A stretch of 52,716 nucleotides of DNA from the NCBI GenBank assembly GCA_012523545.1, contig JAAYIH010000002.1, positions 1 to 52,716 on the forward strand. Reading direction: 5' to 3'. The translations under genes and the position numbers were made by a program. Origin of the DNA: Bacillota bacterium. GTDB taxonomy: Bacteria; Bacillota; Proteinivoracia; UBA4975. The notes under the pieces are model-generated. The model searched no databases, was not told the DNA's origin, and saw nothing but the letters and a program-made list of their open reading frames with translations. This document shows positions 1 through 9,484 of this stretch, in pieces (the stretch's first letter is position 1; every line of letters starts with the position of its first letter).

Positions 1-174
1 ATTATAAGGTTGATTAGGGGGTAGGGATCACCCCCGCGCATGCGGGGAGCATGTACGCTGGATTATAAGGTTGATTAGGGGGTAGGGATCACCCCCGCGC
101 ATGCGGGGAGCATTGTCTGTTGCTATATAACCAAACCAGGCTTTAGGGATCACCCCCGCGCATGCGGGGAGCAT
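1..174 (-). CRISPR. Type I-E CRISPR array, leader-proximal end, cut by the window edge
   Basis: Three identical 29-nt repeats lie at 24-52, 85-113 and 146-174, with two complete 32-nt spacers (53-84 and 114-145) and a partial one at 1-23. The 61-nt period and the repeat core CCCCGCGCATGCGGGG, which folds into a short hairpin, are typical of type I-E. Read on the minus strand, the repeat ends in GTGATCCC, where the 8-nt crRNA 5' handle of I-E systems comes from. The minus strand also places the array directly downstream of cas2, so repeat 146-174 is leader-proximal and the array continues leftwards out of the window. The visible 23 nt of the third spacer equal the matching end of the second spacer exactly, so one repeat-spacer unit appears duplicated. 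Confidence 0.97.
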
Positions 175-203: not shown

Positions 204-1016
204 TTATTTTGTTGCCTTCTCGAATTCAATGAGTTTGTCATAAAGTAACTTGATTGCCATGCTTTCCTCGAGTTCACTGGCGTCAATCTTGAAATATTCC
301 AACAGAGTATCCAGGCGGTAATTGTCGACATCGTCCAACAGGCGACGAGCTAATGCCAGGATATTGATGCACTGGTTTGAGAATAGCGGCAGGCCGCAGC
401 GAGCGCATGCAGCACGCAAGAAGCCATAAATATGCTCTTCATTATGAGAAACAATAGGGGTTTTGCCAACAAACTCGAGGAATTCCGGAAGGACGTCCCT
501 GATGGAACTGTGTGAACTAATCTGGCTGGAAAATCGGTTCTGTATTTCACCGTTGCGGATTTTAATAACGCTGATTTTGCGCAATTCATGCTCGGCAGGA
601 GATGGTCCGGTTGTTTCTATATCAATTATGGCATATGTTGCAGGGTGCAGATAGCTTCTCTTGCGTGTCATTTGCAGGGCTTTGCGCCTGCGGGCAGCTT
701 TACTGTAACCCATGCGCACTTCCGACAATTTCTTTATTCGTGCTGGACTGGGGCGCAAGATGAGTTTTAGACCGTCAAAGTCGATAGGTTCCCATGCAGT
801 GTTGTGAATGCGAAAGTCCATATGCTGTTCATTGTTTGTACTGTATACCATTGTCGCACTGCCGGACTTGGCGCTTTCCTGAATTCGTTCCCAGAGTTTT
901 TCTCTTACTCTGGCGCTGACACGTCCTACGTAGACACCAGTATTTATTTCTTGCAGCCACCTTGTCAAATCACCGCGGAGAGCCGGCGGACAAGCTGTTA
1001 AGGTGATAACGACCAT
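204..1016 (-). CDS. cas2: Cas2 fused to a DnaQ-like DEDDh domain, type I-E
   Basis: 270 residues. Residues 1 to about 95 are a Cas2 of the I-E type (starts MVVITLTACPP, then GVYVGRVSARVREKLW), the partner of Cas1 in spacer integration. After a basic linker, residues from about 135 on form a DnaQ-like 3'-5' exonuclease fold (YAIIDIETTG). Such Cas2-DnaQ fusions are known, for example in Streptococcus thermophilus, where the domain trims prespacers. The ExoI residues Asp and Glu (DIET) are present. The ExoII Asp appears replaced (HNEEHIYGFL where HNxxFDxxFL is usual) and the ExoIII His and Asp are not in place (DASELEESMA). The exonuclease is therefore probably inactive or altered. ATG start with GGAGG seven bases upstream, inside the end of cas1. 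Confidence 0.95.
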   Translation of the reverse strand: MVVITLTACPPALRGDLTRWLQEINTGVYVGRVSARVREKLWERIQESAKSGSATMVYSTNNEQHMDFRIHNTAWEPIDFDGLKLILRPSPARIKKLSEVRMGYSKAARRRKALQMTRKRSYLHPATYAIIDIETTGPSPAEHELRKISVIKIRNGEIQNRFSSQISSHSSIRDVLPEFLEFVGKTPIVSHNEEHIYGFLRAACARCGLPLFSNQCINILALARRLLDDVDNYRLDTLLEYFKIDASELEESMAIKLLYDKLIEFEKATK

Positions 1017-1018
1017 AT

Positions 1019-2670
<1,652 letters not shown>

Positions 2671-2672
2671 AA

Positions 2673-3362
2673 CTATTCTTCCTCCAGTTCTAACATGGGA
2701 TCGTGCTGAGTTTGGATTTCTGTCGGTGGAAGTTGGTATTCCAGCATAGATTCACTTACGCGGCGAAAACCAAACTTGCGGTGAGCTTGGGAAAAGGAGA
2801 TGGGTACATCGCGTTGATAGTAGTAGTGGGTGCTGTCCGGTTCTGCGTCCATAACAATGCGTAGAACGATTTCTTGCATGCCTCTGCGCGGAGGAACATA
2901 ATGGACAAGCCAGGGTTCTTCCTGCAAGGCCTGGAGCAGGCTTTTGTTGCGAATACCCAATGATATTCTGCCTTCCGGTGGGCAGGAGCGCCGGCCTAAA
3001 AAGAGCGGGAAGGCCGGGTGGCGTAATGCGTGCTCGATTTTTGTCAATAAGTCGAGATCCCCTTCCAACCCGGCCAGAAAGACTGCATCTGCCAGGTAGT
3101 ATCGTTGAGTGACATAGGCGGATTTTTTGCTTCGGGCTGTATGATAATCCCGGAGCAACACGCCTTCTTTGTCCACACGTACTCCAAAGCGTAGAGCCAA
3201 CAGGTCATCCACGCTGTCGGTGCGGCGTCTGCCCAGTGCAGCGGCAACCAGACCGATTACTGCGCTTTTGGAAGGAACGCGCTCTGTACCGCGCCGGTCA
3301 AACTTGGCATCAACACCCCACGACTGCAGAGGGGCCGCCAGACGCAGCAACAAGGTGCTCAT
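2673..3362 (-). CDS. cas5e: Cas5e, Cascade subunit binding the crRNA 5' handle
   Basis: 229 residues of the CasD/Cas5e family, a RAMP protein that caps the 5' end of the crRNA in Cascade. The N-terminus LLLRLAAPLQSWG is the family hallmark, followed by the PSKSAVIGLVAAALGRRR helix. The ATG overlaps the stop of cas7e (ATGA), and only two bases separate its stop from the cas6e start, which shows a translationally coupled operon. Confidence 0.96.
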   Translation of the reverse strand: MSTLLLRLAAPLQSWGVDAKFDRRGTERVPSKSAVIGLVAAALGRRRTDSVDDLLALRFGVRVDKEGVLLRDYHTARSKKSAYVTQRYYLADAVFLAGLEGDLDLLTKIEHALRHPAFPLFLGRRSCPPEGRISLGIRNKSLLQALQEEPWLVHYVPPRRGMQEIVLRIVMDAEPDSTHYYYQRDVPISFSQAHRKFGFRRVSESMLEYQLPPTEIQTQHDPMLELEEE

Positions 3363-4465
3363 TGGTCATCCCCTAACCATTGCACAATTTCTTTTTCCAG
3401 TTTGGCCAGTAGATCCATAAAAGGTTGCTTTTCCCCAAGCTCGGAGAGCAAATCGCCGGTAATTAGGGATACATCCGGTTCACCCAACCAGTTTTCGTAG
3501 GTTTTGAGAGCGTGTTCGACAAGAGCCCTGGCGGATGCCATTACAAATCCTTCTTCGTTGTTTTTACCCGCCTGGACCGGTCGTTCAAAAGCACCGACCA
3601 AATTGATGGGTTGATCCTTTCTAATTGTGACCATAACGGCATCGGGCAGGGTGCGGTTGGCAAAGGTATTTTGTTTGCCTGTTGGCATGGAGCACACGAA
3701 GGCTTGTACAAATCCTGTTACCGCTTTGGCTGTGTCAGGTCCGAGGTACTTGTGGAGGTCGTGGACGGCTACAGTTGCATAGCGGTAAAGGGTAGAGGAA
3801 TTGAATTCGACAGTTCCGATATGTCCGGCGCCGGCAGTATCCTCGGGAGAAAGGTCGTCAACAGCAGTGAAATAATCATATTCATTGCTGACTTTATGTG
3901 TAGAAATACTGTGGGCCACTTGGGCACAGGCATCGACATTCAGAGCCGGCTCATCCGCAACCATCCGTCCGAAGAGGGCGATATCTACGCCCGGCGATTG
4001 CTGGAGTGCCTGCTGTGCCTTGGCTTTGGCTTCCTTAGAGGGCTTGTCCTGAATGGTTTCGGGGTCTTCCACGGCAAGCTTTGCCAAAGCTTTGGCCTGT
4101 GCGACACTCATGAAGAAAAGTGCATCGGTGCCTTTTTCGGCAGACTTGATTTTCAAGCCGGCAGTTTCGAGTATTTTTTGGGCCATGGTTTCAGGGTCCC
4201 CAGAGCCGCCCAGGTTTCTAATTTCTTCGGCTACTAGGCTGACTATGCGCTTGGTGCGTATGCCCAAATTTTGCTCGGGAAATATTTCTTTGAACATGTC
4301 GCGCACTGCTTTTTTCCAGCATTGGGAAGAAACCCGGGCCCGGGTAGCTCCGCCGTAAACCGCAGTTTTGGGGCTGCCGGTATCATCCCGGTTAACACAG
4401 CTGGGAGGAACAGTCTGCAGAATGTGAACGTCCACATACAACCGTGCTTCTCTGGTAGTGGTCAT
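3359..4465 (-). CDS. cas7e: Cas7e, Cascade backbone subunit
   Basis: 368 residues from the inner ATG (MTTTREARLYVDVHILQ), which has AAAGGA eight bases upstream; an ATG three codons earlier lies directly on the ribosome site and is unlikely. Cas7e (CasC/Cse4) forms the six-copy filament along the crRNA spacer. The N-terminal segment PPSCVNRDDTGSPKTAVYGG and RARVSSQCWKKAVR are characteristic of this family. The gene overlaps cas5e by four bases. Confidence 0.96.
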   Translation of the reverse strand: MTTTREARLYVDVHILQTVPPSCVNRDDTGSPKTAVYGGATRARVSSQCWKKAVRDMFKEIFPEQNLGIRTKRIVSLVAEEIRNLGGSGDPETMAQKILETAGLKIKSAEKGTDALFFMSVAQAKALAKLAVEDPETIQDKPSKEAKAKAQQALQQSPGVDIALFGRMVADEPALNVDACAQVAHSISTHKVSNEYDYFTAVDDLSPEDTAGAGHIGTVEFNSSTLYRYATVAVHDLHKYLGPDTAKAVTGFVQAFVCSMPTGKQNTFANRTLPDAVMVTIRKDQPINLVGAFERPVQAGKNNEEGFVMASARALVEHALKTYENWLGEPDVSLITGDLLSELGEKQPFMDLLAKLEKEIVQWLGDDQ

Positions 4466-4480
4466 CAAAATCATCCTTTC

Positions 4481-5065
4481 TTAATTATTCTCATTTTCTT
4501 CATTGCTTCGCGGACGGTAAAAATCCCGTCCCCAGCGGAGGCGAACAGAATCTCTGGCGCTGGGGAATTGAAACCAGTACAGATCTTCAGCGAGCGCCGG
4601 GTAATCCAGAGGGATTGATTTTGCCTTCAGGAGCTGAATCAGTCCGCGCAGGTGATGAGCGAATTCTTCCATGCTGTTGGAGGTCGATGCGGCGTCAAAA
4701 CGTCGTTTAATGCGTTTTTCTTCTTCATCATCAGAGACCAGCTTGCGCAGTGCTTTCCCCAAGGATTCGCCATCTTTGTTCATGCATTGGAGTTGAAGAT
4801 CTTTGCCTTGCTGGTGCAATGCGTACAGGGTCAGGGCAGTATGCACCGCCCATTCAGCGCTGGAGGGTTCCTCGCCAGTGCCCATCAATTCGGGGGGCAT
4901 ATCCTGGAAAGTTGCTTCCCACAGTTCCGGTGAACTGCCGGGCTTTTTCCCTATGCCTCGGCGCAGTTTGGCTAAGGTTGCCCTGGATACTGATTCGCTT
5001 TCACTGCCTGCTAACCAGGCGATTTTCCGGCGGACAAAAGCTCCAGTCATTTTTGCCTTTTCCAT
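4481..5065 (-). CDS. cse2: Cse2 (Cas11), small subunit of Cascade
   Basis: 194 residues, helical and basic, with the Cse2-type central region WAVHTALTLYALHQQ and the C-terminal Asp-Leu-Tyr-Trp-Phe motif (LAEDLYWFQ). Two copies form the belly of Cascade and stabilise the displaced DNA strand. ATG start with AGGAGG about ten bases upstream. It is assigned from sequence features and its fixed position between cas8e and cas7e. Confidence 0.93.
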   Translation of the reverse strand: MEKAKMTGAFVRRKIAWLAGSESESVSRATLAKLRRGIGKKPGSSPELWEATFQDMPPELMGTGEEPSSAEWAVHTALTLYALHQQGKDLQLQCMNKDGESLGKALRKLVSDDEEEKRIKRRFDAASTSNSMEEFAHHLRGLIQLLKAKSIPLDYPALAEDLYWFQFPSARDSVRLRWGRDFYRPRSNEENENN

Positions 5066-5082
5066 ATTTCATCTACCTCCTT

Positions 5083-6708
5083 TCAGTTGAATGGTTTTGA
5101 TATCCTATACAGGAAGCGATTAAAGGCCTTAGGGGCAGTATACAGGTTTTCGACATCCTTTCCTTTGATTTTCTCCTTGATATACCGCCCCACGATGGCC
5201 TGGGGTCCTGATTGGGCGACCAGCTCTTCACCAATTCCCCGAACAATTTTTCTCGCCTGCTCCAGCCATTGGTCGCATGAATTTTGCATGCTGTCCTGGC
5301 TGGGGTCTATTTTTTCCAGCCACCTGCGAAAAGGAGTATCCAGGCGGAAATAGGCCTGTTCTTTAGCTGCCGTTTTTTCTCTGCTGCCGTCGGTGTTGCC
5401 GGTTGCCTTGGCAAGGTTTTGTGCCAGTTCTCCCAGTTGGTCTACTAATTTTTCTGTTGCGGCTATCAACTCGATAATCCTGTTAATCCAGCTTTCGCCG
5501 ATGGAAGTGAGTATGTTTAAATTTACCCTTATGCTGTCGGTAAACACATCTGCAATTGTTGTGTTTTGCTTATATTTGACGCCGGCGGCGGCAAGTTGTA
5601 TCAACGGCAGTTGTAAGAAGTCATGTCTTTTTAGCAAGTCAAGCCACGCAACGACTCCGGGACGGTGGTGGTCATCAGACACAGCGAACAAGGCAGCAAA
5701 GTCGCGCCACAATTGGCGGGCTTCATCGTGTAATTTGGGTGTATAGGTGTCTTTGTTAATTTTGCGCCAGAGCGTCATTGTTTCTAGAAATGCGTTTTCG
5801 GTATTTAAAGCCTGACCCGACCACAACCTGTATCCCAAAACGCATTTCCGTGTATTGCACCGGATGAGTTGCATGCGGCGAAATTGCATGGTTAACAGTC
5901 CGCATGGCTCCTTGGGGAATGCAGGCTCGGTTTCCAGTAATTCATCAGGGCTGGTGGTACCTTTGCGTTCCCAAATGATTTCAGGTTCTCCCCAGGTTTC
6001 CTTTTGCGTGGCAAGAACAAAGTTTAACATTAGAGTTTCAAATAAATTAGCGCCAATGGCCCACACCAGCCCTAACTGACTGAGCCACGATAAGCCATAA
6101 CCCTTAATGGTTATTCCTGCACTGGAAGGTCTGCCGCCGGGAGCCGCGTCGAAGGAATTGGTGTATAACAGCCATCTTGCAGCTTCGGCGTAGGAGATGC
6201 AGTCTTTTTGTGTGCGGAAGGAAAACAAACGGGTTTTATTTTCACTCTCCGCAATATCTCCGATTAATACACTTGCCTCAAAGGTAGTGGGGATGATTTT
6301 TGTCCCTGTAGCGGTTAGAACTGGTTCCTCCAGGGCTACCTGGTAAAACGGGTATTTGGGATGGAAGAGCCAAAAGCGTTCTTCAAAATGCAGGAGGTAC
6401 TCTTCGATGATGCCCATGGGAAAAGCGCCTCTGTCCCAAAGGGATTTCCACCGTTCCAGTGCCATGCTGGGAGAGGTTATTGGGTTGAACTTTCCTTCCG
6501 GATCATACCGGCGGAACACAGCATGCAATATAGCCAGGAGAAGCCGCAGGATTGCAACATCCTGAGTTGGCAACTCTCCGGCCAGCCCCTGATATTCATG
6601 GGCATGGCGGAACAGGTTCAAAAGAGATACTTCTTCGGTGCTGCCGTCAGACTTCCTGACAAGAAGCCAGTTTTCATGCAACAAGTTAAACTCTTTTTGC
6701 TCAGCCAT
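5083..6708 (-). CDS. cas8e: Cas8e (Cse1), large subunit of Cascade
   Basis: 541 residues from the ATG encoding MAEQKEFNLLHENWLLV, which has AAGGAGG nine bases upstream; a start seven codons earlier would sit on that site. Cas8e recognises the PAM and recruits Cas3. Family features are the N-terminal FNLLHENWLLV, LLRLLLAILHAVFRR and the loop LYTNSFDAAPGGRPSS. The start overlaps the 3' end of cas3 by eight bases, so translation is probably coupled. Confidence 0.96.
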   Translation of the reverse strand: MAEQKEFNLLHENWLLVRKSDGSTEEVSLLNLFRHAHEYQGLAGELPTQDVAILRLLLAILHAVFRRYDPEGKFNPITSPSMALERWKSLWDRGAFPMGIIEEYLLHFEERFWLFHPKYPFYQVALEEPVLTATGTKIIPTTFEASVLIGDIAESENKTRLFSFRTQKDCISYAEAARWLLYTNSFDAAPGGRPSSAGITIKGYGLSWLSQLGLVWAIGANLFETLMLNFVLATQKETWGEPEIIWERKGTTSPDELLETEPAFPKEPCGLLTMQFRRMQLIRCNTRKCVLGYRLWSGQALNTENAFLETMTLWRKINKDTYTPKLHDEARQLWRDFAALFAVSDDHHRPGVVAWLDLLKRHDFLQLPLIQLAAAGVKYKQNTTIADVFTDSIRVNLNILTSIGESWINRIIELIAATEKLVDQLGELAQNLAKATGNTDGSREKTAAKEQAYFRLDTPFRRWLEKIDPSQDSMQNSCDQWLEQARKIVRGIGEELVAQSGPQAIVGRYIKEKIKGKDVENLYTAPKAFNRFLYRISKPFN

Positions 6709-9484
6709 CAGTCTCAACCTCCTTTTCAAAAGTTAATCCGTCGTCTTTATCATAGGTCAGCTTGTAACCGCAAAGGCTGGCAGTGGAATTTTCGTCGAGG
6801 ATTAGAAACAGTTCCCCTCTGAGCCAAGGAGACTTCTGCCATGCCTGCAGCCTTTCACCGGTAATGCGCTCCAATTCGGCAATGGTTTGATCAATAATCC
6901 AGTGAGCACAGAGGGCGTTAGGCAAACGAATTCTCTGCCGGGCTATCGTTTGCGCCACTTCCGGGTCCGGAGCGCTGTGTTCCACAAGCGGGAAGCCGTC
7001 AGGCTCATCAAGCATATGCAAGTAACCGTTTATTTCCTGAAGCAACAGGACTTCGATGGATTCATCGGCATCGCGAACAGCAGCATCGCCGTGGTGATCG
7101 GAAACATCTTTGTCCAGCCAGCCGGCGATGTTGTATATGGGGTCTGGCCATGGAGGACATATGCGGAATGCCCCGGCGCGGTACTCCTTGTCATGCAACA
7201 GCTTGTCCCAATCTTTCTTGGCTTCCCGGTATCCCGGCGGTTCAGAAGGAAGGGGGAAAGAATCATCATAGACATTCTGAACCAAATTCGGTATGTCCTG
7301 GGGCAGGGTAAGCCGGGGGGGCAAAAGTGCCCTTGTGCGCATGAGCAAGTAAGCGCCGTAAATGTGTTGTGCCCCCGGCTCAAATTCGTCCCCTTCCATT
7401 CCCATTACCAGGCAACAGGCGTGCTTAAGTTTATCTGGCCTGGAACGTGCATGTCTGTGCAGGCGCCCGATTCTTTGCAACAATAAATCCATGGGACATA
7501 AATCGGTGACTAAGACGTCAAAATCAATGTCCAGGGATTGTTCGAGAACCTGGGTGCCGACCAGGATACGCTTTGACGGGCGACGAGTATCTGGTCCCGG
7601 TTTGCCGAGCTCTGCAAGGATTTCCCTTTCTTTTTCGCTGCGATGAGGTGCCAGAAAGCGGGAGTGCAAGAGCCGGACGGTACTATGGCCAAAGTGCCCG
7701 CGCAAATTATTTGCAATTGCCTGGGCTCTTTGCACAGTGTTGGCTATTACTCCAGCACAACCGCCGTCGGAGAGCAATTCGTCCAGTTTTTCTGTGAGCT
7801 GGTCTTCTGCCAATGGTAATATCGAAATGGTGCGGGATACTTCACAGTCAACGGGTACCGCGGTTTGCTTGACCTTATCACCGTCAGAATAGGTAATTAA
7901 TGGATAACTGCGGTTGTCAGCCCAGTCGGGTTTCTGGACGGCTGCAGGGACGGATTTGCTCAGGGGATCTGTGAATGGTTGGGCGGCTGAATCCTGATTT
8001 AAGTATGCGTCAATAATTGCGCGGCGCTTTTGAGCCGGCAACGTTGCCGAGAGGACAATTACGGGCACTTTGTACCTGCCGAGCCACCGCAAGGCCATAT
8101 CCAGATAACGGCCCATGTATGCGTCATAGGCGTGACATTCGTCAATGATTACTACCTTATTGGCCAGGCCCAGATGGCGCAACATTACATGTTTCTGTTT
8201 CAATGCCGCCAATAGCAACTGGTCAATGGTTCCCACCACAAAATCAGCCAGCAAAGATTTTTTCTGCCCTTCAAACCAGTGGTGAACGATAACAGTATCG
8301 CTCTCATCTTCACCGATGCTGGCTACCCCGTCCAGAAATTTCAGGCCCTGGAAGTCTTTGTTGAACTGGGCTTTTCCGTGGGCAAGCATAATTGTATGCT
8401 CGGAATCCGTTTCCAAATGTTTGACCCACTCGAGCATGCGGGGAAATATTGCGTCTGAGGTGGCTTGAGTTGGCAGGGCGAAAAATACTCCCGAGCGCTG
8501 GGTAATATTGGCGAATGCTTCTGCTGCTACCAAGGCAGCTTCAGTCTTCCCGACGCCCATGGGCGCCTCTAAGACCATGATTCCCGGCTCAAGGATATTT
8601 CTTATCGTTTCAGTTACATAGGCCTGCACCGTATTGGGGGCAACAAAGTTGAAGCGGCGTTGATACAGGTCGGCATTCATCCAGGTGTTGTCTGCTTCCC
8701 AAGGAGGGGTAAGGCCAAATTGTTCCCAGGCAGCTGTGCCCCTGCTTTTTGCCTGCAAGGGATCCGGCGAATCCTCCAGGCGGATATGAGGGAAAAAGCG
8801 GGCATTGCTGGCAATCCAGTCTGTCATAATTAGCAGGCCGCTCAAAAGTACCTGGCCTGGCAGATTGGGGCGGGGAACCTGAGTCAGTGACGTAAACCCA
8901 GCCAAATCCGCAGCATAGGCTATAAGTTCCTGTTGCACAGTTGTCCAGGCTTCTTTACCTTCCTGCTCCAGGTGGTAATTGAAGCCAAAGGAATCGATGC
9001 CACAAGAAGCCAGCATGGCATTGCTGGGCGGTTTGCCGTGGTGGGCGCCCAGGATTACAGCTGCGTTTTTATTGCAGCCGGCCTCTTCCAATAAGACCTG
9101 GGTCGCCAGGGCGTGGGGGGTTTTCTTTCGTTCTGTAAAGGCGGAGTAAGGCTTCATGGGCAAACCGGCCATGGATAAACCTTCTTCTATGCGGCAGTCC
9201 AGTTCCGGACAAGGAGGTTGAGCAGGCTTGGCTTGAAAAACGGGGGTCGCCTTGCCTAGGTCATGGGCTGCAGCCAGAAAGATGAACAGTCGTTCTGCCA
9301 GGTCCTCATTCATTGTACTTCCTGCTATGGCTTTTTTAACACCCCGGGGCAGCCAACGACTCCAAAGCATTCGGGCCGCTGCGGCGGAATCGGACATGTG
9401 CATCCACAAGGGAAGCCAGAGCATACTGCCGTCATTTGCTTTCTTTGCCCAGAGGCATTGCGCAGCACGGGAAAGAGCAATCAT
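6701..9484 (-). CDS. cas3: Cas3, HD nuclease-helicase of type I-E
   Basis: 927 residues, full length. The N-terminal HD nuclease has His29, the HDLGK motif at 74-78 and a HHG motif at 148-150. The SF2 helicase follows, with Walker A (MGVGKT, about 309-314), a DECH Walker B at 448-451, the SAT motif in VLSATLPAQ and motif VI QRIGRLHRH. Cas3 is recruited by Cascade at a target and unwinds and degrades the DNA. ATG start with AGGAGG upstream. It is the first gene of the cas operon, so the promoter in front of it should drive the whole system. All key motifs are intact, so interference looks functional. Confidence 0.97.
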   Translation of the reverse strand: MIALSRAAQCLWAKKANDGSMLWLPLWMHMSDSAAAARMLWSRWLPRGVKKAIAGSTMNEDLAERLFIFLAAAHDLGKATPVFQAKPAQPPCPELDCRIEEGLSMAGLPMKPYSAFTERKKTPHALATQVLLEEAGCNKNAAVILGAHHGKPPSNAMLASCGIDSFGFNYHLEQEGKEAWTTVQQELIAYAADLAGFTSLTQVPRPNLPGQVLLSGLLIMTDWIASNARFFPHIRLEDSPDPLQAKSRGTAAWEQFGLTPPWEADNTWMNADLYQRRFNFVAPNTVQAYVTETIRNILEPGIMVLEAPMGVGKTEAALVAAEAFANITQRSGVFFALPTQATSDAIFPRMLEWVKHLETDSEHTIMLAHGKAQFNKDFQGLKFLDGVASIGEDESDTVIVHHWFEGQKKSLLADFVVGTIDQLLLAALKQKHVMLRHLGLANKVVIIDECHAYDAYMGRYLDMALRWLGRYKVPVIVLSATLPAQKRRAIIDAYLNQDSAAQPFTDPLSKSVPAAVQKPDWADNRSYPLITYSDGDKVKQTAVPVDCEVSRTISILPLAEDQLTEKLDELLSDGGCAGVIANTVQRAQAIANNLRGHFGHSTVRLLHSRFLAPHRSEKEREILAELGKPGPDTRRPSKRILVGTQVLEQSLDIDFDVLVTDLCPMDLLLQRIGRLHRHARSRPDKLKHACCLVMGMEGDEFEPGAQHIYGAYLLMRTRALLPPRLTLPQDIPNLVQNVYDDSFPLPSEPPGYREAKKDWDKLLHDKEYRAGAFRICPPWPDPIYNIAGWLDKDVSDHHGDAAVRDADESIEVLLLQEINGYLHMLDEPDGFPLVEHSAPDPEVAQTIARQRIRLPNALCAHWIIDQTIAELERITGERLQAWQKSPWLRGELFLILDENSTASLCGYKLTYDKDDGLTFEKEVETDG

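Follow-up and report, generated by a model that had tools for sequence, protein, structure and literature searches.

A Cas2–DnaQ fusion with a probably inactive exonuclease site in a type I-E locus, and comparable losses among its relatives

The closest described systems are two type I-E Cas2–DnaQ fusions. In the Megasphaera NM10-related Cas1–Cas2/DEDDh complex (PDB 8fy9–8fyd), likewise a Cas2e–linker–DnaQ fusion and matched by the protein discussed here with E = 9e-38, the DEDDh site is active, and both trimming and PAM removal depend on it (catalytic mutant, D132A; PMC10284694). The same study, in which the fusion was a live one, proposes host exonucleases as enzymes able to do the trimming in trans. 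The DnaQ domain of Streptococcus thermophilus DGCC7710 type I-E Cas2–DnaQ (PDB 8h18, 8h2f, 8hi1), the top Foldseek match of our model, is reported, in a passage of PMC8616872 that cites the original work, to be an active exonuclease. We found no description of inactive Cas2–DEDDh fusions in the largely open-access literature searched. Here, we describe a fusion whose exonuclease site appears to be lost, and we survey its relatives.

The locus and its degenerate DnaQ-like domain

The stretch analyzed (hereafter, the window) is a 52,716-nucleotide contig (JAAYIH010000002.1; C14 in our numbering) of a 1.73-Mb draft genome of a Bacillota bacterium, approximately 96% complete. Its minus strand carries a complete type I-E operon that ends in cas2-dnaQ, with the CRISPR array adjoining (Table 1). 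The array begins about 30 nt past the cas2 stop, its TTTAGT leader–repeat junction is kept, and its distal end, with five repeats, lies on contig C41 (L039:1-270). Positions 1–23 duplicate part of the adjoining spacer (62–84), which points to either spacer duplication or an artefact of the contig end. Cas1 aligns nearly end to end with Cas1 of 8hi1 and 8fy9 (phmmer) and is predicted to be active, as it keeps the motifs common to both (22 residues), which we take to be the surroundings of the catalytic Glu, His, and Asp.

Table 1. Features of the type I-E locus and of the fusion protein in the window
Feature	Position	Strand	Basis or remark
CRISPR array, leader-end part	1..174	(-)	3 repeats, 61-nt period, to contig edge
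cas2-dnaQ'	204..1016	(-)	270 aa; Cas2e plus a DnaQ-like (DEDDh) domain, predicted catalytically degenerate
DnaQ-like domain, residues 127-269	210..638	(-)	fold retained in model: AF2 mean pLDDT 92
ExoIII region D245-E251 (DASELEE)	264..284	(-)	His deleted, Asp -> E251
ExoII region H191-I196 (HNEEHI)	429..446	(-)	catalytic Asp -> I196, Phe before it -> H195
Junction I172/R173	498..503	(-)	~22 residues missing; two helices with LTGI segment gone
ExoI D132-I-E134, kept	615..623	(-)	alignment to L010
Linker helices, residues 91-117, GYSKAARRRKA motif	666..746	(-)	AF2 helices 91-100, 106-117
Cas2e domain, residues 1-85	762..1016	(-)	PF09707 E=1e-34; 52% identity to Cas2 of PDB 8fyb/8fy9 (Foldseek)
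cas1 (type I-E)	1019..2005	(-)	TIGR03638 E=6e-109
cas6	2670-2029	(-)	profile matches
cas5	3362-2673	(-)	profile matches
cas7	4474-3359	(-)	profile matches
cse2	5065-4481	(-)	profile matches
cas8e	6729-5083	(-)	profile matches
cas3	9484-6701	(-)	profile matches
cas6, cas5, cas7, cse2, cas8e, cas3	2029..9484	(-)	complete interference operon

A preliminary description, made from the sequence alone, had recognized a Cas2 domain joined to a DnaQ-like domain, and profiles (PF09707, PF00929), an AF2 model, and Foldseek all agree: Cas2e lies N-terminal to a DnaQ fold, which is the architecture of the trimmer-integrases. PF00929 matches the second domain above the cut-off (47.3 bits) in two broken stretches, and the best Foldseek match of the model is 8h2f (E = 4.8e-11, TM 0.75); the same entry matches the model of L010, an intact relative (genome G044), far better (TM 0.92, E = 2e-18). 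Retention of the DnaQ fold is well supported for the window. The domain has the fold and the profile of the DEDDh family (PF00929), and it lacks the full D-E-D-H-D catalytic set that belongs to the trimmer-integrases and to that family alike.

Residues were called against L010, which is 61% identical overall and carries the motifs DVETTG, HNANFD, and MHRSIED. The ExoI pair, described as kept (DIET), does align with that of L010 (D132 and E134), and the ExoII Asp is replaced by Ile (I196), as had been noted. At ExoIII, the reported Asp-to-Glu change holds (E251), whereas in our alignment the reported His-to-Ala change does not, the His of L010 falling opposite a 4-aa gap in the window protein. 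In addition to what had been described, about 22 residues are missing at I172/R173, where relatives carry IPxxIxxLTGI. This deletion removes both LTGI helices (176–182 and 186–192 in the L010 model), and the third strand of the window model runs straight into the next helix. In the IIEIG strand, E is changed to K and G to S. In DEDDh enzymes, the 3' end sits in a pocket lined by the LTGI segment. Because this segment is deleted here, the suggestion that the domain might serve only to bind the 3' end of the prespacer is disfavored.

We compared conservation of the core and of the active site over the columns that are identical in three intact relatives. Aligned core columns were kept about as well in the window (40 of 54) as in the intact L044 (42/55) and L045 (45/55). 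Conversely, only 8 of the 28 active-site columns are kept in the window, with 10 changed and 10 deleted, versus 26 in L044 and 23 in L045. When deleted columns were left out, the contrast between core and site gave p = 0.04 for the window, and for the three other dead-domain fusions described below it gave p = 0.001 (G145), p = 0.03 (L065), and no significance (L054). Together with the modelled fold, this core conservation supports the earlier suggestion of a catalytically dead domain that remains structural, but it could reflect the time before the loss.

Recurrence of the loss among relatives

A scan of GTDB genomes returned 80 relatives, giving 77 full-length fusions when the window and L010 are counted. 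All five DEDDh residues are kept in 74 of these, among which they are 100% conserved; the three without the full set are the window, L054 (bacterium ADurb.Bin157), and L065 (Ruminococcus sp.), the latter two from distant lineages. These three are also the only full-length fusions in which the stretch between ExoI and ExoII is shortened (61, 62, and 66 residues; median, 82). A second, Pfam-based survey covered 399 genomes of the phylum and yielded further fusions, some of them shared with the first set; among 12 of its translations read by eye, 11 were intact and one, G145 (L130/L154), was dead. G145 reads HVQT, SHSEDHV, and GQGRIGPC at ExoI, ExoII, and ExoIII, respectively, and its LTGI segment has kept its length and lost its motif. 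The ExoI D/E pair is not retained in G145, L054, or L065. Searches of viral contigs, phages, and plasmids found no close fusion.

With five positions invariant in 74 relatives, both deletions in frame, and comparable losses in three other genomes, we reject chance and consider a sequencing artefact unlikely. As judged from the alignments, the catalytic site of the window fusion is very probably dead. What is dependable here is that the catalytic set has been lost repeatedly, along with the LTGI segment in three of the four cases.

The trees bear on how often this occurred. In the operon tree, the window groups with the intact L043 (95/98) and G145 with the intact L010 (100/99), and a forced grouping of the window with G145 is rejected (p-AU 7e-6); a single loss shared by the two is rejected on this basis. 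L054 and L065 are placed elsewhere in the Cas1+Cas2 tree. A DnaQ-only tree does group the window with G145 (96/90), helped by the dead-site residues that they have in common (P140, E217, and H219 in L010 numbering). Without the active-site columns the two are no longer joined, but joining them is not rejected either, and a short recombined tract may be involved. We count three to four separate losses of the catalytic set.

Several other loci in the surveys are of separate interest. In Eubacteriales STD2_130 (L053:4001-4900), a TAG stop stands just after the ExoII Asp, and the remaining domain is intact in frame. In Bacillota HKB214 (L055:4001-4890), the frame breaks at an A6 run in the Cas2–DnaQ linker, DnaQ is intact in a different frame, and a single open frame spans Cas1 and Cas2; this is either an assembly error or a frameshift. 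A human-gut 'Bacteriophage sp.' record (MT835722.1, 12181-13551) encodes a Cas2–DnaQ fusion 39% identical to that of the window, followed by I-E array matches, and may be a bacterial contig. Cas2–Cas3 fusions are known from type I-F; at L207:8755-11856 (G349:C1:722000-737000), an apparent type I-E locus, Cas2e continues into Cas3 with no intervening stop, in a single 1034-aa frame directly after cas1 (PF09707 at residues 1–86, Cas3_HD at 116–329, then helicase and Cas3_C).

Spacer length, trimming, and the role of the leftover domain

We investigated whether spacers beside dead or absent domains remain uniform. The window array holds few spacers, and the adaptation argument leans on G145, whose array has about 29 distinct spacers (at least 28), with 26 of the 28 counted at the modal length. 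Over all arrays, repeat intervals were off the mode in 5 of 64 cases where the neighboring domain is dead or absent and in 73 of 1519 where it is intact (p = 0.24; a small effect would be missed with 64 intervals); by locus, the counts were 1/6 in the window, 2/29 in G145, 0/8 in L054, 0/8 in L065, and 2/13 in L068. A live fused exonuclease therefore appears not to be needed for uniform spacers. These spacers record past acquisition, and only the extensive sequence change in G145 dates them against the loss. A search with the G145 array matched only two phage records, and the better one has a Cas2–DnaQ gene and repeat-like matches of its own.

The genome of the window encodes one other PF00929 protein, a stand-alone one with an intact site (G000:C43:2199-2663; DVETTG, HNVPFD, HHRAMAD). 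Intact stand-alone DEDDh genes also occur in the genomes of G145, L054, L065, and L068, so that each of the five genomes whose fused domain is dead or missing has one. Short stand-alone DEDDh genes were found in 5 of 14 intact-fusion genomes versus 5 of 5 dead or absent ones (one-sided Fisher p = 0.022), in a small post hoc comparison that ignores relatedness and uses a cut-off for 'short' (frame below 350 aa) set after the data were seen. The most telling case on who trims is L068 (G402, Coriobacteriia): its Cas2 keeps the conserved GYSKAARRRKA linker, stops just past the linker helix without a DnaQ domain, and an intact stand-alone DEDDh gene that matches the PADLOC DEDDh model (L204:520-1110) lies directly before cas3. 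These uniform spacers, the presence of stand-alone DEDDh genes in all five genomes, and the gene before cas3 lend circumstantial support to the earlier idea that trimming is left to another nuclease, and trimming is probably done in trans by another enzyme.

We lean towards the reading that a pseudo-exonuclease has been retained for a non-catalytic role, with trimming in trans, after three to four independent changes. The window fusion would still build the Cas1–Cas2 integrase, which would itself set spacer length, while 3' trimming and PAM removal would fall to another exonuclease, for which the stand-alone DEDDh on contig C43 is the simplest candidate. The leftover domain may shield or position prespacer or repeat DNA, or may stabilize the complex; in the window fusion, any such role would be non-catalytic. 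The repeat contact made by R142 in Megasphaera fails to explain retention, since this position is Glu in both the window and the intact L010 (phmmer). A stronger version, namely that Cas2-fused exonucleases were repeatedly turned into pseudo-exonucleases with a positive job in the integrase (3'-end gatekeeping or a grip on the repeat) while stand-alone DEDDh enzymes trim, is tentative and, in our judgment, rather doubtful.

The domain might instead be a dead, functionless passenger that persists because the loss is recent or truncation is not selected, with L068 as its eventual fate. The outright absence in L068, which manages without any fused DnaQ, and the stop in L053 fit this explanation, as does the roughly doubled length of the DnaQ branch, relative to Cas1/Cas2, in the window and G145 compared with intact relatives. 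However, conservation of the core columns is close to that in active relatives, and four open frames persist, that of L065 despite near-total sequence change. In codon branch models, omega = 1 is also rejected for the window branch (2dlnL 32.8), although omega is only indicative here, as synonymous sites are saturated, branch times are at the bound, and part of the branch predates the loss. We regard decay without function as unlikely. Alternatively, catalysis might persist in a weak or altered form: three carboxylates remain at the ExoI and ExoIII positions of the window protein (D132, E134, and E251), these could hold one metal ion, and H195 or E194 might act as the base. The complete conservation of the ExoII Asp and ExoIII His in 74 relatives, the deletion of the LTGI segment, and the absence of the ExoI pair from G145, L054, and L065 make this very improbable.

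It is also conceivable that this organism has an inactive adaptation module, the array and the fusion being relics. The window and C41 contain few assembled spacers, one of them partly repeated at the contig edge, and a protospacer search with the two leader-end spacers found no match among viral contigs. On the other hand, profile matches show Cas1, Cas2, and every interference gene to be intact, the leader–repeat junction is kept, and G145 maintains its many distinct spacers beside a dead domain; an inactive module is distinctly unlikely.

Comparison with known systems

If the stronger version above is true, it would amount to natural evidence that I-E adaptation can rely on trimming in trans. 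Lineages whose fused trimmer is dead or gone and whose spacers are still uniform are natural experiments on the proposal made in the Megasphaera study; they separate length setting (by Cas1–Cas2) from trimming (by any exonuclease) and name candidate trans enzymes. Compared with the Megasphaera trimmer-integrase, the window fusion lacks the ExoII Asp, the ExoIII His, and the LTGI helices. The CRISPR-associated stand-alone DEDDh of the PADLOC model lies beside cas3 in the Coriobacteriia relative, whereas that of the window genome sits on another contig. In E. coli type I-E, a fixed length is shielded by the Cas1–Cas2 integrase, with the trimming left to host nucleases acting in trans, and the window system likely works in this way too; however, E. 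coli Cas2 has no fused domain, whereas the window Cas2 keeps one.
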